In this document: positions 8,823 to 22,110 of the stretch, piece after piece | Position numbering within the stretch: the first letter of the stretch is position 1 | How the letters are laid out: the number at the start of each line of letters is the position of its first letter | Assembly: GCA_024743075.1 (NCBI GenBank) | Contig: JANSXG010000002.1 | Coordinates: 1 to 50,728 of the forward strand | Source of the DNA: a bacterium | GTDB taxonomy: Bacteria; Planctomycetota; Phycisphaerae; Phycisphaerales; UBA1924 | Direction: 5' to 3' | Length of the DNA: 50,728 nt | Translations under genes and position numbers: made by a program | Notes under the pieces: generated by a model | Databases searched by the model: none | Seen by the model: only the letters and a program-made list of their open reading frames with translations | What the model was told of the DNA's origin: nothing

Positions 8823-10190
8823 GTGCCACGCTCAAGCTTTATCCTGAACGTTTTCGCCGCGTGTCTTGTCGCCCTCGGATGCGGGCGTGCCAATGCCAGC
8901 GTCAGCGCCGACCGCTCCGCGCTGACAGGAAGCGTGATTTTCATCCACCCCGACGGAGCATCCGCCGCGACGTGGGCGGCGGCGCGTGCCCTCTATGTCG
9001 GGCCTGACAGCAATCTGAACTGGGACCTGCTTCCGGCCGTCGGCGTGTATCGCGGCCATATGAACGATTCGCTCACGGCCACGAGCAACGGCGGCGCGAC
9101 CACGCACGCCTTCGGCATAAAGGTGGCCTCGGATGCGTTCGGTCTCACCGCCGGCGGTGACCGGGGGGAGCGCATAGTCGACGAACAGGGGCGCTCTCTG
9201 AGCGTTGCGATGCAAGCCCTGCGAAGCGGGATCCCTGTCGGTCTGGTGCAGACCGGTGTTTCCACTGAACCGGGAACCGCCTGCTTCGTGTCGGAGGCGG
9301 ATTCGCGTCACGACCATTTCGACATCGCTGCGCAGTTGATCGACTCGGGCGCGACAGTCCTCTTCGGCGGCGGCGAGAAGCACTTCCTCCCGGTGGGTAC
9401 GAAGGGTGTTCACGGCGAGGGGCAACGTCCGGACGGACGAAACCTCATCGCCGAGGCGATCGATCGCGGCTACACCGTGGTCCGAACCCGAGATGAGCTG
9501 CTGAGCCTGCCGACCTCGGTCGACAAAGTGCTCGGTCTCTTTGCGTGGGACGCCACGTTCAACGACAAGCCCGAGGAGATTCTCAAGGAGAAGGGCCTGA
9601 CGAACTTCGATCCGGAAGCACCGACCGTCGCAGAGATGACCGATACCGCGATCCGGATCCTCTCCGCCGGTGGCGAACGCTTCCTTCTGGTGGTTGAAGA
9701 GGAAGCCACGGACAACATGGGAAACAACAACAACGCGTCCGGGACCCTTGAAGCCGCGCGCCGGGCGGATGAAGCCTTGGGAGTGGCATTGCGACATCTC
9801 GCCGACAACCCCCAGACCCTCCTTATCACGTGCGCGGACAGCGACGGCGGTGGTCTGAGAATGAATGGCATCGCGCTCGCACCCGGTGAGGACGCCCCTC
9901 GGTCGCTCCCGGCCTGGGATCCCAACGGTGCCCCCGTCGACGGTGCGAACGGCACGGGATCTGCCCCGTTCATCGCTGCCCCGGATCGAAACGGCCGCCG
10001 ATTGCCTTTCGCCGTGGTCTGGTCGAGCAAGACAGACGTTTCCGGCGGCGTCCTTGTTCGTGCGGACGGTCTGAACAGCCAGCGTGTACGCGGGACTGTG
10101 GACAACACGATGATCGCGGAATTGATTCGGTTGACGCTCTTTGGTTCTCCCGACGGCCCGGCGGAACCGCTACTCAGTGCTCGCAACTGA
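8823..10190 (+). CDS. Alkaline phosphatase family protein, secreted
   Basis: About 455 residues if started at the GTG at 8823, which follows AGAGG by eight bases and places a signal peptide (PRSSFILNVFAACLVALG) at the N-terminus; a TTG at 8805 is the alternative. The mature part begins with GSVIFIHPDGAS, the first metal-binding aspartate loop of the alkaline phosphatase fold. TATSNGGATTHAFG follows, at the place of the TDSAxxATA nucleophile segment, and then VVEEEATDNMGNNNNASG, matching the VEGGxxDxxGHxND metal segment with Asn where many members have His. Expected role: removal of phosphate from phosphomonoesters outside the cytoplasm. The altered nucleophile segment (no DSA) is a variant, so specificity is uncertain. 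It is divergent from the 8627 gene across about 195 bases. Confidence 0.85.
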   Translation: MPRSSFILNVFAACLVALGCGRANASVSADRSALTGSVIFIHPDGASAATWAAARALYVGPDSNLNWDLLPAVGVYRGHMNDSLTATSNGGATTHAFGIKVASDAFGLTAGGDRGERIVDEQGRSLSVAMQALRSGIPVGLVQTGVSTEPGTACFVSEADSRHDHFDIAAQLIDSGATVLFGGGEKHFLPVGTKGVHGEGQRPDGRNLIAEAIDRGYTVVRTRDELLSLPTSVDKVLGLFAWDATFNDKPEEILKEKGLTNFDPEAPTVAEMTDTAIRILSAGGERFLLVVEEEATDNMGNNNNASGTLEAARRADEALGVALRHLADNPQTLLITCADSDGGGLRMNGIALAPGEDAPRSLPAWDPNGAPVDGANGTGSAPFIAAPDRNGRRLPFAVVWSSKTDVSGGVLVRADGLNSQRVRGTVDNTMIAELIRLTLFGSPDGPAEPLLSARN

Positions 10191-13520: not shown

Positions 13521-13936
13521 TGATCAATAGTGGAGCCGGGGGGAATCGAACAACCCCATTTTCCGCGATTTCGGATGCGTCAGGCGGGGTAGACGCACAC
13601 CAGAACGCACACGAGCAACTCGCAGAGATTGTTCGCGTGTGGGCAAGCCTCCCCGAGGCCTTCCGCGCGGCTGTGCATGGCCTGGTGCGCAGCGAGGCAG
13701 AGAGTGCGTCTCGCCAGCAGACACACGGTTCGTTCGCCCATGAGTCGAGCGATACCCCTGACGGGCGGAGCCATGCCCGACCGGGCGTACCATGCGAGCA
13801 CGGCAGGGGTGTTGATCGACGGGGCTCGGGAGCAGAAGGGCCGTCGGAGCGCTCGGCGGCGGGGTGCGGCTCGCCCGCACCCGCCGCGACGCGACAAGGC
13901 CCGACTCCCGGTGACGGTCGTGAGGTGTCCCCATGA
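13520..13936 (+). CDS. Orphan tail of the integrase reading frame (in frame across att core)
   Basis: 138 codons with no ribosome site at the first ATG. The frame passes through the att core as SGAGGNRT in the same phase as the integrase at the other end. In an excised circle the integrase would read through the core into the 127 codons after it, for a product of about 556 residues instead of 444. The tail has AHQNAHEQLAEIVRVW followed by LPEAFRAAVHGLVRS; a W-x-x-LPE-x-x-R-x-x-(6)-VR pattern is, as far as I recall, recurrent at the ends of planctomycete integrase-associated frames (not checked). Its stop codon overlaps the rep start as ATGA, the arrangement used throughout this element, which supports coding. 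The last 70 residues are low-complexity. In the integrated state it has no obvious start. Confidence 0.5.
   Translation: MINSGAGGNRTTPFSAISDASGGVDAHQNAHEQLAEIVRVWASLPEAFRAAVHGLVRSEAESASRQQTHGSFAHESSDTPDGRSHARPGVPCEHGRGVDRRGSGAEGPSERSAAGCGSPAPAATRQGPTPGDGREVSP
13528..13551. repeat. attL core (24-bp copy of tmRNA 3' end)
   Basis: Identical over 24 bases to 21763-21786; the two diverge immediately on both sides (A before against G, A after against C). Read on the minus strand it is the 3' half of the T-arm plus the acceptor strand of tmRNA, ending CTCCACTA. It is too short to be an RNA gene on its own. Confidence 0.93.
13594..13615. repeat. Left subterminal repeat (candidate integrase arm sites)
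   Basis: 22 bases matching 21595-21616 at 21 of 22 positions in direct orientation. It contains two CGCACA hexamers at 13594 and 13606, 12 bases apart. It begins 42 bases inside attL. Paired short repeats near both ends at helical spacing are typical of arm-type integrase or excisionase sites; that role is inferred. Confidence 0.6.
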
Positions 13937-14955
13937 GCACCTCGAAGATCTATCCCCGCTCTGTAACACCGGGGATAGAAAACCACTCAGACTCATCAGA
14001 CAGCCTCGCTGCCGGTGATGTACCAGGCGTTTACTGCACCATCGATTGGCTTCGAGGCACTTGCTCGGAAGATCATCTGGATCGCTTGATCGAGTTCTGC
14101 GAGAGCCGATTCGGGAGCCGATACCGGAGATCCACCGGCGCGAAGCACTTCGATCAAGGCTTTGACTGGTCGGGTGGCGTACAACTCAGCTACGGCCATT
14201 CAGCCGCGATCGCGATGCTCGATGTGCGCGGTGAGTGGCTGGCGTCGGTCGGCTTCGGTAGCCGCATTGCCGCCCTCCGATCGATGACTGCCTTCGGTCT
14301 CAAGATGACCAGGATCGACCTGGCGTTAGACTTCATCCATCAAGATCGCGAGCTCTACCACAAAGCGCTCGCGTCCTGTCAAAGGGATGAACACTGTCGA
14401 CTGAGGTCCTTCGAGCCGAACCCACGTTACGGACCAGGTCTCCAACCAACCAAGCTCGTCCTTCGCCTTGGTAGCCGTGAATCCTCCGCATGCGCGAAGA
14501 TCTACGACAAAGGGCTCGAACAAAAAGCCATGCCGCCAGGGGCATGGGAACGCATCGAGTGCGAGTTCAAGGAAGCCAAAGTCGCCGAAGTCGCGCAGCT
14601 TCTGATTGAGTCAGACGAACCGGAACAGCTCATCCCGGACATCGTGTTTGACACGTTCGATTTCAGGGAGCACAACGGGCGATCTGAGTTGAAGCGGCGT
14701 CCTCGGGTGGAGTGGTGGGCGGACATCGTTCAAGACCGCGGGATCCGCGTGCGGTCAGCGGTGCGGGCGAAGAGCTTCCAGAGGTGGAGAGACGCATTCG
14801 TCACTTCCTATGGACGGACTTTGCTTCGGCTTTCTGAGTCTGTCGATGTCAGCGTGCCCCGCCTGGTGGGGTTCCTACTCGCGGGATCACGTCCAGCGGA
14901 TCGACCAATTCCATTCGAGGGAGAGCTACGCGCTGAACTCGCGAGGTCCGAATAA
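13933..14955 (+). CDS. Replication initiation factor-like protein (Rep_trans family)
   Basis: 340 residues; the ATG overlaps the preceding stop (ATGA). Features fitting the Rep_trans rolling-circle initiator family are an early 'YCTIDWLRGT', a central 'KMTRIDLALDFIHQ' with the paired acidic residues of the metal site, 'LRLGSRESSACAKIYDKGLEQ' carrying the tyrosine region (KIYDKG), and 'WERIECEFK'. Family members nick a double-strand origin through a tyrosine and start rolling-circle replication of plasmids and integrative elements. The C-terminal third (about 240-340) does not resemble anything I recognise. Its presence suggests that the excised circle can replicate. Family assignment rests on motif spacing read by eye. 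Confidence 0.72.
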   Translation: MSTSKIYPRSVTPGIENHSDSSDSLAAGDVPGVYCTIDWLRGTCSEDHLDRLIEFCESRFGSRYRRSTGAKHFDQGFDWSGGVQLSYGHSAAIAMLDVRGEWLASVGFGSRIAALRSMTAFGLKMTRIDLALDFIHQDRELYHKALASCQRDEHCRLRSFEPNPRYGPGLQPTKLVLRLGSRESSACAKIYDKGLEQKAMPPGAWERIECEFKEAKVAEVAQLLIESDEPEQLIPDIVFDTFDFREHNGRSELKRRPRVEWWADIVQDRGIRVRSAVRAKSFQRWRDAFVTSYGRTLLRLSESVDVSVPRLVGFLLAGSRPADRPIPFEGELRAELARSE

Positions 14956-14991
14956 TTGCCCGGCTTGAGCCGAATGGCGCAAGGCGGGCAA
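14956..14991 (+). terminator. Strong hairpin directly after rep, before the qat operon
   Basis: Starts at the base after the rep stop codon. Nested arms: TTGCCCG/CGGGCAA, CTTG/CAAG and GCC/GGC around a GAAT loop, with single mismatches between the blocks. CTCCATTAGC follows, with no T-run. It probably ends or attenuates rep transcription and isolates qatABCD; an operator for a dimeric regulator is the alternative. Confidence 0.55.
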
Positions 14992-15114
14992 CTCCATTAG
15001 CTATTGTGCCAGGTGTGCGCCCTAGGCACGCGACTGTGGAAAGGGCCCATAATTTGATAGGATGGCACGCGTACTTCCCGGATTTCCGGGTGGACTCCGA
15101 GGAGAGCTCGACAG

Positions 15115-16959
15115 ATGTGGGTAGACGACGTTACTGACATCGATTTCGTCAATTTCACTAGCGTAGCTGACACCGTTGCCGAGGTGATACAGCGAGCCGA
15201 GGGACAACCGGTCTCGATTGGCGTTTCTGGGGCTTGGGGTGTCGGCAAGTCTTCGATGATCAGCCTGATCAAACATTCGATTGCCAAAAAGGATCTCAAT
15301 TCAAAATTTATCTTCGTGGATTTCAATGCATGGCTTTACCAAGGTTTTGATGATGTCCGCGCCGCTCTGCTCGAAATCATTGCCGAGAAGCTTAAGGATG
15401 TAGCGGAAGAACGACAGACTGGAATTGATAAGGCTAAGGAATTACTCGCCAGAGTTGACTGGCTGCGAGTAGTAAGGGCAACTGCAAGCAATGCCATCGC
15501 TTTGTCAATGGGCATGCCTCCGATGGGAATGCTTGGAGAGGCCTTTCGGCGCGGGAAAGCCATGGTCTCCAATGGGGTCACGGAAGATGATATTGATGCT
15601 GCTGGCGAGATGGCCGGTGAGATCAGTAGCTATCTAAGGCCGAAGCATGAAGAATCGCCTCCCCAAGCCATCCATGCTGTCAGATCGTGCTTTGAACAAA
15701 CGCTAGAGGAGCTTGGGGTCACATTAGTGGTACTAATTGACGACCTTGACAGGTGTCTGCCGGAAACCACCATATCGACACTCGAAGCAATTAGGCTCTT
15801 TCTGTTTCTCGATCATACTGCGTTCGTGATTGCAGCTGACAATGATATGATCAAAAATGCAGTCAGAAAGCACTTTGACGGTGTAAGTGATCAGCATGTA
15901 ACTAGCTACTTTGACAAGTTGATTCAGGTGCCCATAGGTGTACCGCCACTTGGTACGCAGGAGGTAAGAGCTTACTTAATGCTCTTGTACGTTGAATCAA
16001 GTGATATGGAGGATGAGGATAAGTCAAAAATACGCGCAGATGTAGTAAGCCAGCTTTCAAAAAGTTGGCAGGGACACCGCGTTGATCGAGCGTTCATGCA
16101 GACATTGGGACATCAGTATCCTGCATATCTGGTAGCCCGATTCGACGCTGCCGATCGGTTAGCACCCTTGATGACGACTGCTGAAGGCATTAAAGGCAAT
16201 CCTCGACTGATCAAGAGATTTCTGAACGCTCTGTCAATCCGTCTTTCGCTTGCGCATTCGCAAGGTGTGACTGTTGAGGAGACTGCTCTCACCAAGTTGC
16301 TTCTTTTCGAACGGTGCGGAGACCGCAAGGCGTACGCCGAGTTGGCAGAAGCGATTGCGAGTAGTGATGATGGAAAGCCGCTGTTCCTCTCAGGGTGGGA
16401 AAAGAGTGCGAGCGCGGGTGAAGAGATGGATCTCCCCCCGCACTGGGACTCTCCTTTTGCGCGAGCGTGGCTCGCATTGGCTCCGGAGTTGTCGGCCCTT
16501 GATCTTCGAGGTGCCTTGTATGTCAGTCGTGAGCACACACCTCTGATTACTCCAGAGGACCGTCTCTCGTCTGCGGGCATAGAAATCCTCACAGCTCTGC
16601 TCGACCACCCTGAAATGGCTGGCGGGCTGGCTCAAGATTTAGCTGGGCTGCAGCATGCAGAGCGAAGTGTGATTTTCGATCGTGTGCTCGAGCGTGCGCG
16701 TCTGATACAAGAATGGGGTATACCAGACGAGCTTGAGGCTTGCCTTGTCCTGTCGCGATCTGACGCATCTCTTGGCGATCGCCTGGCGGCATTTTTAGGC
16801 GAGCGACCAGCTGTTCAGTTGACACCGGCAATTGTGCAAAAGATATCAATGGAGCCATGGTCCAAGACGGTCTTCAAGCAATGGCAATCAGCGGATCCCT
16901 CTGAAGAAGTCAGCAGGGCCATCACGAGGGTATTGAAGGATGGGAACATCACAGTCTAG
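15115..16959 (+). CDS. qatA: QatA, KAP-family P-loop ATPase of the Qat anti-phage system
   Basis: 614 residues. Walker A is GAWGVGKSS at residues 39-47; after it FVDFNAWLYQ is the KAP-type 'F-NAW' strand. Residues about 105-150 (VRATASNAIALSMGMPP) are the hydrophobic insertion typical of KAP NTPases, and Walker B is LVVLIDD at 204-210, continuing LDRCLPE. The ATG at 15115 follows GAGGAGAG. KAP ATPases occur in several phage-defence systems. Here the following QatB-like, QueC-like and TatD-like genes identify Qat (QueC-like protein associated with ATPase and TatD DNase), reported to protect against phages by a mechanism not fully known. A candidate -10 (CATAAT) lies at 15048-15053. The gene has lower GC and uses TTA, ATA and AGA codons more than the flanking chromosome. 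Confidence 0.9.
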   Translation: MWVDDVTDIDFVNFTSVADTVAEVIQRAEGQPVSIGVSGAWGVGKSSMISLIKHSIAKKDLNSKFIFVDFNAWLYQGFDDVRAALLEIIAEKLKDVAEERQTGIDKAKELLARVDWLRVVRATASNAIALSMGMPPMGMLGEAFRRGKAMVSNGVTEDDIDAAGEMAGEISSYLRPKHEESPPQAIHAVRSCFEQTLEELGVTLVVLIDDLDRCLPETTISTLEAIRLFLFLDHTAFVIAADNDMIKNAVRKHFDGVSDQHVTSYFDKLIQVPIGVPPLGTQEVRAYLMLLYVESSDMEDEDKSKIRADVVSQLSKSWQGHRVDRAFMQTLGHQYPAYLVARFDAADRLAPLMTTAEGIKGNPRLIKRFLNALSIRLSLAHSQGVTVEETALTKLLLFERCGDRKAYAELAEAIASSDDGKPLFLSGWEKSASAGEEMDLPPHWDSPFARAWLALAPELSALDLRGALYVSREHTPLITPEDRLSSAGIEILTALLDHPEMAGGLAQDLAGLQHAERSVIFDRVLERARLIQEWGIPDELEACLVLSRSDASLGDRLAAFLGERPAVQLTPAIVQKISMEPWSKTVFKQWQSADPSEEVSRAITRVLKDGNITV

Positions 16960-17770
16960 TACCGGATCTCCATCTGGCGTACCGATGGTGCCTCCTTGGG
17001 TTGACGGGAGTGACGGAGAGATTCCTCCGCAGGCGGAGTCGCCCTCGGAAGATATCGATGATTCTGATGAAGCTATCGATAAGCCTCATCAACCAGAACA
17101 GTTAGCTCCAAAGGCACGGTTCTACTCAACGCGGATTGCTTTGGGGAAGTTCGCCGAGACTGGTGATCGCGCTCCAATGCAACGAGGGGTCGGTCGCTAC
17201 ATTGGGGCTGGCTTGGGGGGGACCCAAACTGCCGTCAGAAGATTTGGAGGTACGGCGACGGGTGCGTCTGCGCTGTACTCGGCCCTTGGTGGAACGTCGT
17301 CCGATCGGGACACTAAACTTGATAGAAATGTATTGGCAGGGCGAACGGCAAATCAGATCATCGCCGCTGTAGTAGAAGCAACCCGCCCCGTGGACGGTTC
17401 TTTGGATTCAGAAGCTAGTCGACAATCGATCAATGATGCGTTGTCTGATCTTTTGAAGCGGTACCCTGATACAGACTTGTTAAAGCTAACAGAAGAACAA
17501 CGTGTCTTTGTAGTGGAGAGATATGTTGCCTATGATGTGTACTTGAGATTTATGCTCGATGTCGGGCAGCATATTCAAGATAAATCACCAACCCGATCCA
17601 TAGCACTGTCTCGTCAGCGTCAGATACGTGAGTATATTCGCGAGGCAGTTGCAGCTTCATTTCGCACCATGCGGAATGCTGGTAGAACGCTGACGGGTGG
17701 CAACGTATCGTCTTTGGTGAGATCGGCGCTGGAAAGTGCCTTCGATGTTTTCGTAGGATTTTCAGAATGA
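16940..17770 (+). CDS. qatB: QatB, Qat system component of unknown biochemical role
   Basis: 276 residues, starting 20 bases inside qatA in another frame, so the two are probably translationally coupled. The N-terminus 'GTSQSSTGSPSGVPMVPPWV' is the low-complexity Ser/Gly/Pro opening typical of QatB proteins, followed by an acidic linker (about 30-50). The rest is probably helical, with a conserved block near 'RYIGAGLGGTQTAVRRFGGT' and a C-terminal helical part (about 170-276). No enzymatic motif is visible. The assignment rests on the N-terminal pattern, size and position between the KAP ATPase and QueC-like genes. Confidence 0.85.
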   Translation: MGTSQSSTGSPSGVPMVPPWVDGSDGEIPPQAESPSEDIDDSDEAIDKPHQPEQLAPKARFYSTRIALGKFAETGDRAPMQRGVGRYIGAGLGGTQTAVRRFGGTATGASALYSALGGTSSDRDTKLDRNVLAGRTANQIIAAVVEATRPVDGSLDSEASRQSINDALSDLLKRYPDTDLLKLTEEQRVFVVERYVAYDVYLRFMLDVGQHIQDKSPTRSIALSRQRQIREYIREAVAASFRTMRNAGRTLTGGNVSSLVRSALESAFDVFVGFSE

Positions 17771-19044
17771 AGCTCATCTGTCGACCTCACGGCACATCCT
17801 TGCCGACGCCAAGCCGTTGTGATCTTCCCGTTTTGATGTACGGCCGTTGCGAGTCAGGTCGCGCAATCTCTTGTGGCGCAGCGGTCGCGGAGCAGATAAG
17901 GCGGAAAGGTTATGTTCTGCCCCAGCGAGCATGGGACCTTTTGTCGTTGGCTCTCGCTGTGACGGCTGCTGACACAGCAATTGGCAGAGGACTAAGCCCG
18001 GATGGGTGGACTAGACAGTTAGATTTGGATATTGGAGTGCACGATCCAGACTTTTGGAATTCCCAAAAAGAATTGATTGGATCGATTCTCCAGTTTCTAA
18101 CTACTGATATCTGGAAAGTGCAATTCGTCCAAGCGTCATATGAGCCGAAACCTCCAAAGCATGTCGCTTTATGCGAAGAGAAGTCAGTCATGTTGCTGTC
18201 GGGGGGGCTGGACAGCTTGGTTGGCGCGCTGGATTTGGTTGCAGCAGGAATAAAGCCTGTCGCGGTTAGTCAGACAGTAAAGGGCGATGGTGAAAAGCAG
18301 TTGGTATTCGCAAGCAGCATAGGCGGGGGGTTGACACATCTGCAGCTGAATCACAATGTCAAGGCTCCGAAGGGCGCCGAAAGGTCACAGCGTGCGAGGT
18401 CATTTATTTTTCTGACTTATGGCGTGCTTGCTGCAACTGCGCTGCCAAATTATCAAGATAGTCCTCAACTTCCCATGTACGTGTGCGAGAATGGGTTAAT
18501 CGCAATCAATCCTCCGTTAACTGATACGCGAATAGGCAGCCTAAGTACTCGCACGACTCATCCTACATACCTGTCGAAGTTTCAGAAGCTTCTTGATAAC
18601 GCTAAGTTATTTGTTTCGATCCGCAACCCATATGAATTTAAGACTAAAGGTGAGATGCTCAGTGAGTGTGGGGATCAGGATTATTTGATCAATGCTGCGC
18701 ATGTCTCTACTAGTTGTGGTCGCTTTGCTCGGCATGGTATGAAACACTGTGGCCGTTGCGTTCCTTGTTTGATTCGCCGAGCAGCTTTCCAGCGATGGGA
18801 AGTGGCCGATAGGACACAGTATCTATTTGCTGATCTTTCAAAATCGGACAAGGATCACGCGCAGTTCGATGACGTCCGAGCTTTGTCAATGGCTGTGTCT
18901 CGTGCAAAAAATGAGGGCGTGGATGCTGTACTAGGAGCAAGCTTGCTGTCAGATGCAATCGATGATCCTGAGCCCTATCGTGGAGTGGTCGAGAGGGGTC
19001 TAGCTGAAGTGCGTCATTTGTTGGAAGGGTACCGGGTGCGATGA
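17767..19044 (+). CDS. qatC: QatC, QueC-like PP-loop protein of the Qat system
   Basis: 425 residues; the start overlaps the qatB stop as ATGA. The PP-loop ATP-binding motif is LLSGGLDS (about 143-150), as in QueC, the 7-cyano-7-deazaguanine synthase. A QueC-like zinc cluster is present: Cys at 317, 328, 331 and 334 (STSCGR, then KHCGRCVPC). The first 130 residues precede the PP-loop and are absent from housekeeping QueC, which is about 230 residues long. QueC converts carboxy-deazaguanine to the nitrile with ATP. The QatC substrate is not established here, though both ATP-binding and zinc motifs appear intact. No queD, queE or queF lies nearby, which argues against a queuosine-pathway role. 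The region is AT-rich compared with the host. Confidence 0.9.
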   Translation: MKLICRPHGTSLPTPSRCDLPVLMYGRCESGRAISCGAAVAEQIRRKGYVLPQRAWDLLSLALAVTAADTAIGRGLSPDGWTRQLDLDIGVHDPDFWNSQKELIGSILQFLTTDIWKVQFVQASYEPKPPKHVALCEEKSVMLLSGGLDSLVGALDLVAAGIKPVAVSQTVKGDGEKQLVFASSIGGGLTHLQLNHNVKAPKGAERSQRARSFIFLTYGVLAATALPNYQDSPQLPMYVCENGLIAINPPLTDTRIGSLSTRTTHPTYLSKFQKLLDNAKLFVSIRNPYEFKTKGEMLSECGDQDYLINAAHVSTSCGRFARHGMKHCGRCVPCLIRRAAFQRWEVADRTQYLFADLSKSDKDHAQFDDVRALSMAVSRAKNEGVDAVLGASLLSDAIDDPEPYRGVVERGLAEVRHLLEGYRVR

Positions 19045-19772
19045 TCGATCTGCATTGTCACATTGATCTTTATCCTGATCCGCAAATGGTCATTCGTAAA
19101 TGTTTGTCGAAATCAATTTTTGTCCTTTCGGTGACTACTACGCCTCAAGCTTGGCCTATTTCGTCAAATATTGTATCTATGCATTCAAAGATGCCAGCGG
19201 CACTCGGACTTCACCCCCAGCTCGCAGGGTCGCGACGGTCTGAAGTCGATTTATTTGACAGTCTCATTGGCGAGACATCGTGGTTAGGGGAAATTGGGCT
19301 GGATGGGGCAGCGGAGTTTTCCCATACTTGGCAAGATCAGCTATTTGTGTTTGAGCACATTCTCAAAAGTGCCTCGTATGATGGTGGGAAAATTATGTCA
19401 ATTCATAGCCGACGGGCTGCCAGGGATGTCCTCGGCGTGCTGAGGCGATTCCCCGATGCGGGCGTGCCTGTTTTGCACTGGTTTTCCGGTACGCTAGCAG
19501 AGCTTCAAGAAGCGATTGACATGGGTTGCTGGTTCAGTGTTGGCTCACCAATGATGCACTCAAAGAGTGGGCGAGCTTTGATTGCTCGCATTCCCAAAAC
19601 TCGCTTGCTGACTGAGTCCGATGGGCCGTTTGTCCAGCATTCGGGTGGGCCTGCCTATCCGTGGCAGGTGATAGAAACCAGTGCGGAGCTCTCCAGGGTT
19701 TGGGGCGTAGATCCAAAGGTCGTTTCCGCACAACTCGAGGACAATCTCGCGTGTTTGCTGTCAAGTATCTGA
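19041..19772 (+). CDS. qatD: QatD, TatD-like metal-dependent nuclease of the Qat system
   Basis: 243 residues; ATGA overlap with qatC. All expected TatD metal ligands are visible: HCH at residues 5-7, Glu84 in GEIGLD, His122 in IHSRR, His146 in LHWFSG and Asp194 in TESDGP. The protein should therefore be an active metal-dependent hydrolase, probably a DNase. TatD enzymes act as 3'-5' exonucleases or endonucleases. In Qat, this nuclease is thought to be the effector or a processing enzyme (inference). Length is close to housekeeping TatD (about 260). It closes the qat operon; 145 bases with a candidate promoter separate it from the regulator gene. Confidence 0.9.
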   Translation: MIDLHCHIDLYPDPQMVIRKCLSKSIFVLSVTTTPQAWPISSNIVSMHSKMPAALGLHPQLAGSRRSEVDLFDSLIGETSWLGEIGLDGAAEFSHTWQDQLFVFEHILKSASYDGGKIMSIHSRRAARDVLGVLRRFPDAGVPVLHWFSGTLAELQEAIDMGCWFSVGSPMMHSKSGRALIARIPKTRLLTESDGPFVQHSGGPAYPWQVIETSAELSRVWGVDPKVVSAQLEDNLACLLSSI

Positions 19773-19866
19773 CCGTGACACTCGTTATCTGATCTTCTTG
19801 ACATCGCACGTGTCCCCTGGTTGCGCATTTTTCGGTGGGCATGAAACAGACTCCGTGCGCCATGAC

Positions 19867-19894
19867 TTGACACCGGTAGAGAGGCCGGTAAGGA
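19867..19894 (+). promoter_or_regulatory. Candidate sigma-70 promoter for regulator-xis-int operon
   Basis: TTGACA at 19867-19872, 16 bases, then TAAGGA at 19889-19894, about 24 bases before the regulator start codon. The -35 is perfect and the -10 weak. A second TTGACA at 19798 lacks a partner. CCGG repeats between the hexamers could serve the ribbon-helix-helix protein as an operator (speculative). Confidence 0.4.
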
Positions 19895-19917
19895 TCCTGG
19901 TACACAAGGAGGCACGC

Positions 19918-20295
19918 ATGGCCAAGAAACACCAACCAAAGCCCCGCGACGAGGGCAAGGCCCGCTTCGAGCTCCGCTTCGATGAAGACTTGTACGCTGA
20001 AATCAAGCGAATCGCGGACGAGACCGAGATCAGCGTCAATCAGCTGATGCAGGGCATCGCTCGGTGGGCAGTCAAATATGCCCACCCCCGTGAAGAGGTC
20101 ACGGATTTCAATCCTTTCGAGGGTGTAGACACCGCGACCCAGCCGGGCTGCGTCTGGTTTGGACACCAGTGTGATGTATGCGATGACGGCGACGAACCAT
20201 TCCCGATCAATGCTGAAGTCTTCTTCCACCTTGACTTTACCGAGCGACGAGTCGTCCGCGAACCTGAACCACAGCCCAGAGGAGGTCGATCATGA
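19918..20295 (+). CDS. Ribbon-helix-helix DNA-binding protein with Cys-containing tail
   Basis: 125 residues from the ATG at 19918, five bases after AAGGAGG; an in-frame extension to 19798 is unlikely. Residues about 14-45 (ARFELRFDEDLYAEIKRIADETEISVNQLM) have the beta-strand/helix/helix pattern of Arc/CopG-type repressors. The second half is unusual: CVWFGHQCDVCDDGDEPF contains three Cys in a Cx6Cx2C arrangement that might bind metal. Such regulators commonly autorepress and control excision. The gene is coupled by ATGA to the excisionase gene, so it is likely the master regulator of excision (inference). GC content is back to host level here, unlike qat. Confidence 0.72.
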   Translation: MAKKHQPKPRDEGKARFELRFDEDLYAEIKRIADETEISVNQLMQGIARWAVKYAHPREEVTDFNPFEGVDTATQPGCVWFGHQCDVCDDGDEPFPINAEVFFHLDFTERRVVREPEPQPRGGRS

Positions 20296-20501
20296 GCCAA
20301 CTAAAGAAGCCAAGAGAACTCTCACGTCTTCTCACTCTTGATGAGGTCGCCAATCGGCTCGCGGTTAGTCGACGGACCATCGATCGATTGATCGCTGAGG
20401 GCGAACTCCCAAGATCCGTGAAGATCGGGGCATCGTCACGAATGCCCGAGGAAGACCTGCGGCTATACATCGAACGCCAGTTACGGAAGCGGGGGGGCTG
20501 A
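20292..20501 (+). CDS. Excisionase-type helix-turn-helix protein
   Basis: 69 residues, overlapping the upstream gene (ATGA) and the integrase start (TGATG, one shared base). The core LTLDEVANRLAVSRRTIDRL, followed by IAEGELPRSVKIG and PEEDLRLYIERQL, is the winged helix-turn-helix pattern of the excise/AlpA/MerR-like family. Position directly before int and small size support excisionase: a DNA-bending factor that directs recombination towards excision. The arm-like repeats at 13594 and 21595 are candidate sites for it or for the integrase. Confidence 0.82.
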   Translation: MSQLKKPRELSRLLTLDEVANRLAVSRRTIDRLIAEGELPRSVKIGASSRMPEEDLRLYIERQLRKRGG

Positions 20502-21835
20502 TGCCTTATCAAGTCTTCCAGCCGACACGCATGAAGAACGGAAAGCGTGTTCGATCGCCGCTTTACTCGATGAAGTATCGCTTTGAACCTCACGAGCGCT
20601 ACAAGCGAATCCCGCTCAAGACAACCGACAAGCGGGTTGCCGAGAAGAAGGCGGCAGAGATTTACCGGGAGATGGAACGCGAGCGCGAGGGCATACTCGC
20701 ACCGCGTGTCCAGCGTGATGCTGCAGGGATGCCGATCGCGGATCTGCTTCGCGAATTCGTGGACGAACTCGAGCTTCGAGGACGGTCAAGAGACTATCGG
20801 CGGAAAGTCGAACAGCGATGCCAGGCAGTCGTCGACGCCACAGGCTGGCGGTTGCTCCGTGAAGTCGACTCTGATGAGTTCCGATCATGGCGGCGGGGGA
20901 AATCCCGAACGGTCTCGCCGAGAACGCTCAACCACTACACCGATTCACTGCGGAACTTCTTCGGCTGGCTGGTCGAGACTGAGCGACTCACGCACAATCC
21001 TCTGGCCTCGATCACACCCGTAGAGTCACGAGGTCGAGAGAAGAACAAGCGGCGGGCCTTGACCGATGCGGAGTCTCGCGAACTCGTCGCGACCTCCGGC
21101 GAGCGGTCGCTGATCTACATGGTGGCACTGCGGACCGGACTGCGGCGGAATGAGATCCGCACGCTCCGCTGGTCAGATGTCCTGCTCGATGGCGAGCAGC
21201 CCCGCATAGTTGTCAGAGCGTCAAACGCGAAGTCGAAGCGTGAAGAGGCCGTGCCCCTGTCCGATGAACTCGCCAGCGAACTCAAGCGGATCAAGCCTGG
21301 ACCAGATGCGTCCGGCAAGGTCTTTCGCCGTGGGATGCCTTCACACCACACCTTCCGCCGAGACTTGGTGGCTGCTGGGATCGCTCATACGGACCGCGAG
21401 GGCCGCCGGGTCGACTTCCATGCCCTGCGGCACACCTTCGGCACGAGCCTCGCCAAGGCGGGCGTGCCGCTCCAGGTCGCCATGCGGCTGATGAGGCACA
21501 CCGATCCGAAGCTGACGGCGCGGGTCTATGTCGATGCGGGCCAGCTACCGACCCACGAGGCGATCGGTTCCCTGCCTTCGCTGGGTGCAAAAAGCGCACA
21601 CCAGAGCGCACACGAGGGCGCACATATTCGGGTCGCGGACGGTGTCGGGGAGTCGTCGGCTGTCGCGAAGATGAAACCCGAGAGCAACGAAAATATCCCG
21701 TCAATTAAGCAAAAAGGCGTGCCGAAGCACGCCCAGTCGCCCGCTGTCGCGAGTCGTCGAAGTAGTGGAGCCGGGGGGAATCGAACCCCCGTGTCGGAAC
21801 AGTCCGCGTGCCGCTTCTACGCGTGTAGTCGCTGA
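20501..21835 (+). CDS. int: Tyrosine recombinase (integrase) running through attR into tmRNA
   Basis: 444 residues. The N-terminal part has an AP2-like region (about 10-60) and a SAM-like core-binding domain (about 78-170). The catalytic domain carries Arg215 (TGLRRNEI), a Lys in AKSKREEAVPL (about 246), His307 and Arg310 (FHALRH), His333 (MRHTDP) and Tyr343 (ARVYVD): the full active set. After residue 360 the sequence is low-complexity (AHQSAHEGAH and onward). Residues 421-429 (SSGAGGNRT) are encoded by the att core, and the last 15 residues and stop come from DNA antisense to tmRNA. The natural C-terminus is therefore accidental in the integrated state; in a circle the frame continues into the 13552-13936 tail. 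Expected reaction: site-specific recombination between the element and the ssrA 3' end. Confidence 0.93.
   Translation: MPYQVFQPTRMKNGKRVRSPLYSMKYRFEPHERYKRIPLKTTDKRVAEKKAAEIYREMEREREGILAPRVQRDAAGMPIADLLREFVDELELRGRSRDYRRKVEQRCQAVVDATGWRLLREVDSDEFRSWRRGKSRTVSPRTLNHYTDSLRNFFGWLVETERLTHNPLASITPVESRGREKNKRRALTDAESRELVATSGERSLIYMVALRTGLRRNEIRTLRWSDVLLDGEQPRIVVRASNAKSKREEAVPLSDELASELKRIKPGPDASGKVFRRGMPSHHTFRRDLVAAGIAHTDREGRRVDFHALRHTFGTSLAKAGVPLQVAMRLMRHTDPKLTARVYVDAGQLPTHEAIGSLPSLGAKSAHQSAHEGAHIRVADGVGESSAVAKMKPESNENIPSIKQKGVPKHAQSPAVASRRSSGAGGNRTPVSEQSACRFYACSR
21595..21624. repeat. Right subterminal repeats: three CGCACA at 12-base steps
   Basis: CGCACA at 21595, 21607 and 21619. The first 22 bases match 13594-13615 with one mismatch. 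The block lies within the 3' part of int, 138 bases before the attR core, and encodes AHQSAHEGAH. Likely arm-type binding sites; alternatively a coding repeat only, but the match in the non-homologous left end argues for a DNA role. Confidence 0.6.
21716..21733 (-). terminator. Element-encoded intrinsic terminator for tmRNA
   Basis: On the minus strand: GGCGTGC, TTCG loop, GCACGCC, then TTTTT. This is a textbook intrinsic terminator with a UUCG tetraloop, 33 bases past the tmRNA 3' end. It lies inside the int coding region (residues about 405-412). It replaces the original terminator, now displaced to 13495-13520. Confidence 0.85.
21763..21786. repeat. attR core (3' end of intact tmRNA gene)
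   Basis: 24 bases identical to attL at 13528-13551. It spans the 3' side of the tmRNA T-arm and acceptor stem and is read through in frame by int. The exact crossover point within the 24 bases cannot be told from sequence. Confidence 0.93.
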
Positions 21836-22110
21836 TTTCATCTCGCTCGCTGAGCCGAGCAGGACACCCTGCTCAGCGCGCCAGCCTCAGAAAGTTCTCG
21901 CCGATCGGCGCTGAGACGCCGCCTTTCGGCCAGCCCGATGTCATTGAGCGTCACCCTATCGGGCGTCGGACGACGCTCAGGCCACTTTATTAGGCGGCCA
22001 TAGCAAACTGCGGTTCGGCAGTTATAAGTGTGAACGCTTGATAACGCGGTTGCATTCGCCGCGACGCGCCACGACACACATTCCCTGTCCGGTCGATGCC
22101 GGTCGGCCCC
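21766..22110 (-). ncRNA. ssrA: Transfer-messenger RNA (tmRNA)
   Basis: The 5' end GGGGCCG pairs with CGGCTCC at the 3' end (seven pairs, one G-U). The 3' part has a T-arm with GTTCGATTCC. The tag frame on the minus strand runs 22019-21987: GCC GAA CCG CAG TTT GCT ATG GCC GCC then two TAA stops, encoding AEPQFAMAA, with TAACT just before the resume codon, comparable to UAGUC in E. coli. This fits the common A-x-x-x-(F/Y)-A-x-A-A tag consensus. The terminal CCA is not encoded (CTA follows the discriminator). tmRNA with SmpB rescues stalled ribosomes and tags products for proteolysis. The mature sequence appears intact despite the integrated element; only the downstream terminator differs. Confidence 0.9.

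Follow-up and report, generated by a model that had tools for sequence, protein, structure and literature searches.

Recombination at an attP site inside a coding frame swaps the C terminus of a regulator in the integration-dependent immunity of mycobacteriophages, where the affected gene encodes the repressor and the end that is lost is a degradation tag, unlike in the elements described here. Att sites inside integrase genes have been reported for very few elements (PMC4701971), and Mx8 and SSV are treated as exceptions in Islander (PMC4383910). Self-disrupting recombinases are described as exclusively archaeal in a review of the archaeal systems (PMC8371274). The Mx8 integrase has attP inside int, and integration replaces its 112-residue C terminus by 13 residues (PMC4701971; PMC6070905); the integrated form is reported to be less active (PMC4701971) and changed in specificity (PMC6070905).

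The window (the whole stretch of DNA that was analyzed, 50,728 nucleotides) contains an 8,235-bp element between two 24-bp cores, spanning 13528-21786 (~8.2 kb). The att core, TAGTGGAGCCGGGGGGAATCGAAC, is identical at 24 of 24 positions in its two copies, which carry no strand assignment; the left core (13528-13551) is a copy of the tmRNA 3' end displaced by the element, and the right core (21763-21786) falls within int and also makes up the 3' end of the tmRNA gene. This gene (ssrA, 21765-22110, minus strand, located with ARAGORN) is intact and is the integration target, giving the layout of an integrative element at tmRNA with the intact gene at one end, the displaced 3' fragment at the other and an integrase between them. 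All the genes between the cores are carried on the plus strand, beginning with the orphan C-terminal integrase tail (13552-13936) and rep, a Rep_trans replication initiation factor (13933-14955; PF02486, E = 1.7e-15). The TGA of the tail overlaps the ATG of rep as ATGA at 13933, and the same overlap, also with a Rep_trans gene, is present in L056, an element at tmRNA with an integrase 44% identical to that of the window; the order of tail then rep recurs in L056, L064, and L079. Downstream is a complete QatABCD anti-phage system (15115-19772) with the same four adjacent genes in the same order as the known Qat system (PADLOC), composed of the KAP-family ATPase QatA (15115-16959, E = 2.1e-144), QatB (16940-17770, E = 1.5e-37), the QueC-like QatC (17767-19044, E = 2.6e-104, also above the cut-off of NCBIfam NF041925), and the TatD-like nuclease QatD (19041-19772, E = 1.9e-85). 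The Qat genes are cargo only and stand outside the switch proposed below. An MmeI-like restriction-modification protein directly follows the tail in an element at tRNA-Ser (L092:11285-14401), a case suggesting that defense cargo may be common in such elements. The remaining genes encode a ribbon-helix-helix (Arc/HicB-like) regulator of uncertain start (19798-20295; PHROG Arc-like repressor, E = 3.1e-7), an AlpA/HTH_17-type protein that is a probable excisionase (20292-20501; HTH_17, E = 3.3e-12; Phage_AlpA, E = 4e-5; PHROG excisionase, E = 1.9e-11), and the tyrosine integrase int in its integrated form of 444 amino acids (20501-21835; PF00589, E = 2.6e-21; PHROG integrase, E = 3.9e-48). The left flanking gene, used as a probe for an empty site, is rare and gave one distant match only.

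The original prediction was that the int frame crosses the right core and that the left core is open in the same phase for 127 codons, and both are seen in the sequence. Joining the two ends (up to 21786 and from 13552) gives one frame of 556 amino acids that contains LPEAFRAAVHGLVRS and stops at 13934-13936, and the integrated form stops at 444 amino acids with its last ~15 residues read from tmRNA antisense DNA; the peptides given in the prediction are correct and its coordinates are right to within one base. Integration swaps 127 residues for ~15 in the window int. The catalytic domain (residues 202-345) is whole and upstream of the core in the integrated form, with the tyrosine recombinase residues Arg-215, Lys-244, Arg-310, His-333, and Tyr-343 among the invariant columns, and the solved structures related to the integrase are XerC-like enzymes and HP1 Int. 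The open frame alone goes only weakly beyond chance, because 21% of the positions in the GC-rich window are open for 127 codons; 5% of the shuffles of the tail region stay open. The window tail does not have the codon-position GC pattern shown by int, and its ~79 residues beyond the conserved motif are of low complexity without the typical coding GC pattern. It is on the homology evidence from relatives, described next, that the frame is confirmed as real.

Integrase relatives were taken from genomes and genome contigs with their upstream DNA. A first scan of genome contigs with a single protein gave no match, and no close relative was found in the phage and plasmid collections. In most relatives the int ORF terminates within a tRNA or tmRNA gene, read on its antisense strand, and both att copies were found in 36 elements. 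A stop or frameshift at attP had been named as an outcome that would count against the prediction, but rejoining the ends gives an attP frame that is open and in phase for 35 of the 36. The first set accounts for 23 of 24 elements in phase, open, and with a common motif. In the second set, of 12 further elements, the tail played no part in the choice of the att copy, and all 12 are in phase and motif-bearing; given a tail at that place, the chance of the correct phase is one-third. The second set includes elements from Verrucomicrobiota (L173, L179, L181, L191, L195, L198, L199, and L223, the last with an interrupted int region and not recovered when extracted a second time). The exception is L059, in which an indel in the core leaves the tail in phase for one of two repeat blocks so that the frame depends on the crossover point; L073 is in phase as well. 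The hosts of elements with this arrangement belong to Planctomycetota and Verrucomicrobiota, and the targets are tmRNA and the tRNAs for SeC, His, Glu, Leu, Asn, Ser, Ala, Thr, Val, Lys, Met, Gly, Arg, and Cys. The window's own genome contains a second such element (L146, on G000 contig C203), which is 7.5 kb long and located at tRNA-Met, with a core of 47 bp, a fused integrase of 638 amino acids and the tail PADLRQVVERWADLPEPIRAAVVTLVQAAGA. In three further ORFs (L241, L247, and L016) a tail-like end is joined directly and no tRNA-like att core lies inside; they are possible unsplit variants and show that the wider family does not always require loss of the tail. Minimal elements of 2.2-2.4 kb (L060, L066, and L070) have room for little beyond int and the tail. 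The core of L082 matches a tRNA-like 3' end in sense and not antisense, with a weak in-phase tail (E = 0.002).

The tails share a consensus of about D..L..VV.AWP.LP..hR.aI.aMV.A, which in the window is the segment AHEQLAEIVRVWASLPEAFRAAVHGLVRSEAE (13607-13702, plus strand) found by profile matches. The profile was trained on 14 tails with the window tail excluded, and the window tail is the best match outside the training set (E = 9.3e-6 among 20,558 six-frame segments), the profile otherwise matching only the left ends of elements. The motif is conserved in relatives at the protein level, where a lack of conservation of the tail had been the second outcome taken to speak against the prediction. 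Over 48 tails the identities at the three codon positions are 0.54/0.66/0.41 and the BLOSUM score reaches 2.21 per site in the tail frame compared with 0.59 and 0.25 in the other frames; the codon-position identities show that selection acts on the tail protein. Some 117 tail matches occur in 50 of 57 genomes, mostly as short separate ORFs of 70-160 codons, and the profile detects the tail in none of the 89 unique int ORFs of the first genome set. Eleven tail motifs in one single-contig genome (G576 contig C1) suggest that it holds many resident or decayed elements. Long tail-containing ORFs in L124-L128 were considered as integrases and rejected, being same-frame read-through of neighboring DNA. 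The motif has no family match in Pfam or PHROG, and the extreme C termini of the tails vary (ASGK, DATR, RGHP, REVSP, and NGNT). In 21 of 28 cases the interval from core to motif contains an in-frame ATG, GTG, or TTG, with no conserved position and no excess of start codons over the expectation for the 976 codons scanned. Distances between int sequences do not correlate with distances between tails (Mantel r = 0.09, p = 0.16), a comparison over 31 residues that has little power.

The core is flanked by direct repeats in comparable positions across the elements; these exceed 95% of shuffles in 16 of 16 cases, and their placement and form resemble those of arm-type integrase sites. The tail-side arm of the window element consists of two 12-bp units, GACGCACACCAG and AACGCACACGAG, located at 13593-13616 (plus strand), which follow the codon phase and encode DAHQNAHE. 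The int-side arm has three units of 12 bp, AGCGCACACCAG, AGCGCACACGAG, and GGCGCACATATT, the third recognized by eye, at 21591-21626 (plus strand), also in codon phase and encoding SAHQSAHEGAHI. The tail-side arm has CGCACACCAGARCGCACACGAG in common with the int side, with an alignment score of 19.5 compared with a shuffle maximum of 14, and the peptides read SAHQ-SAHE-GAHI on the int side and DAHQ-NAHE on the tail side.

The gene of the unrecombined attP, predicted from the joined ends, is seen as natural uninterrupted copies in two relatives (L164 and L244) and not in the window element itself. L164 is a viral contig (IMG/VR record 3300036717_000070), without a terminal repeat and possibly a fragment, in which int is not at a prophage end because it is flanked by helicase/primase and terminase genes. 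Its Int of 528 amino acids is continuous through the catalytic domain, a repeat, a tRNA 3'-end-like core with the peptide HVGLEPTENMRE, a second repeat, and the tail; the 22-bp repeat GGGCGCACCAAAAGCGTCACCA occurs at 9063 and again at 9287, on either side of the core. In L244 the parts follow the same arrangement around a tRNA-Gln-like core. Further scans of viral contigs gave no second uninterrupted phage gene beside L164. The AlphaFold model of L164 Int has confident AB, core-binding, and catalytic domains, a disordered stretch at residues 382-494, and two short helices at residues 497-520 with a pLDDT of ~80. The disordered stretch coincides with the attP-coding part, and thus in the model the att DNA is tolerated as coding for a flexible tether that joins the enzyme to a small predicted hairpin.

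The att pairs and the codon-position comparison show that integration must cut the predicted hairpin off and that this hairpin is under selection as protein. The arrangement itself, with attP inside int and a tail that is real and lost on integration, is very probable. The whole attP, composed of arm repeats, a tRNA-like core, and further arm repeats, is placed inside the int coding sequence between the catalytic domain and the conserved C-terminal helical hairpin. The circular form reads through attP and encodes the full 556-residue enzyme, and integration breaks int at the core such that the chromosomal copy keeps the catalytic domain and exchanges the hairpin for ~15 tmRNA-antisense residues, while the opposite end of the element retains the orphan tail. 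The tail is inferred to act in the circle because it is joined to the enzyme only there, and it may matter only in that state. Its most likely role would be to promote attP × attB integration via protein contacts made on the flexible tether, although the balance of probability for an integration-promoting role is about even. Loss of the tail would leave a resident integrase that is weaker or biased toward excision and acts with the AlpA-like factor, so that the loss is probably a switch between the free and inserted states. Cotranscription of int and rep would likewise be possible only in the circle and could couple replication to excision. On the broadest and tentative reading, to which somewhat less than even confidence is given, attP within int across Planctomycetota and Verrucomicrobiota would be a conserved directionality switch, in which the circle alone specifies both the int-rep operon and an integration-competent enzyme with the hairpin tail, integration disarms the integrase and disconnects replication, and the DNA junction serves as the memory.

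The main rival to the switch treats the tail as an ordinary C-terminal helper in any state, with attP located in int for compactness and for linkage, by which enzyme and site travel as a unit, and the loss tolerated, and it has an appreciable probability short of even. The three ORFs with an attached tail-like end and no internal core would be expected of such a helper, as would the intact catalytic domain of the integrated form, and an att site within the integrase gene has been viewed as a compact exchangeable module (PMC8371274). The split is, however, near-universal among the recovered elements, a conserved tail that matters in the circle should have a consequence when it is removed, and the two forms of Mx8 are reported to differ in activity (PMC4701971). 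A chance origin, in which the frame past the left core is open merely through GC-rich DNA, has next to no probability. The 21% of window positions open for 127 codons and a tail without the codon-position GC pattern of int would suit it, but the in-phase motif in 35 of 36 elements, the signature of a translated frame, and the natural contiguous genes do not, and for the motif chance is refuted by homology; the low-complexity end of the window tail is possibly open by chance.

Two further proposals keep the tail as a functional protein and assign it a different task. As a tag for instability or protease recognition it would make the circular form unstable and integration would yield a stable integrase, a logic analogous to that of mycobacteriophages with attP inside the repressor gene; the conservation resides, however, in an internal amphipathic hairpin and the extreme C termini are variable, unlike an ssrA-type tag, which makes this proposal unlikely. 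It is similarly improbable that the left end of the integrated element expresses the orphan tail as a trans-acting factor, for example an inhibitor or a partner of the truncated integrase. The orphan frames do stay open, and most have an in-frame start before the motif (21/28), but the start position is not conserved, the starts are not in excess, selection in the circle accounts for the open frames, and the int(N) and int(C) fragments of SSV-type elements are considered inactive pseudogenes (PMC8371274).

The switch reading can be compared with the described systems, although no description of a planctomycete case was found in the open-access literature searched. The SSV-type "suicidal" integrases of archaea (SSV1, pTN3, and pT26-2) also have attP in the integrase gene and are split at a tRNA gene (PMC8371274), but there the split parts the N-terminal from the catalytic portion and inactivates the enzyme, whereas in the window the catalytic domain stays whole ahead of the core and only the C-terminal hairpin is lost. 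These bacterial elements, with Mx8, qualify the statement that such recombinases are confined to archaea (PMC8371274). Streptococcal ICEs that integrate at rumA swap the 3' end of their integrase gene and so change its C terminus, as here (PMC4701971), with the differences that the enzyme is a serine recombinase, the target is a protein gene, the reading frame is changed, and no conserved tail is described. Orphan tails and tRNA fragments together provide a marker for locating element ends, and many planctomycete integrase records represent the truncated form, which explains frames that end in tRNA-antisense peptides. The closest likeness is to Mx8 (intP/intR, int/intX), which like the window element has a tyrosine integrase with attP inside int and a long C terminus exchanged for a short one, and a stretch resembling tRNA antisense, STGLEPVLLG, stands in the middle of the Mx8 Int frame (L093). 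Homology to Mx8 Int was considered and rejected, with nothing similar detectable beyond the enzyme class (blastp E = 0.03, off-register; no match to the tail profile). By analogy, Mx8 offers a partial precedent for a functional difference between the two forms, which according to the original prediction might serve integration and excision, respectively. Unlike Mx8, the elements described here constitute a conserved lineage with a common tail motif and many tRNA targets and include non-phage elements; the design recurs in dozens of bacterial elements whose common tail motif is lost on integration, which makes them a simple system in which control of direction by the junction itself can be tested. 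As judged from these comparisons, the window element would work like Mx8 without detectable homology to it, as a member of a conserved and widespread lineage.
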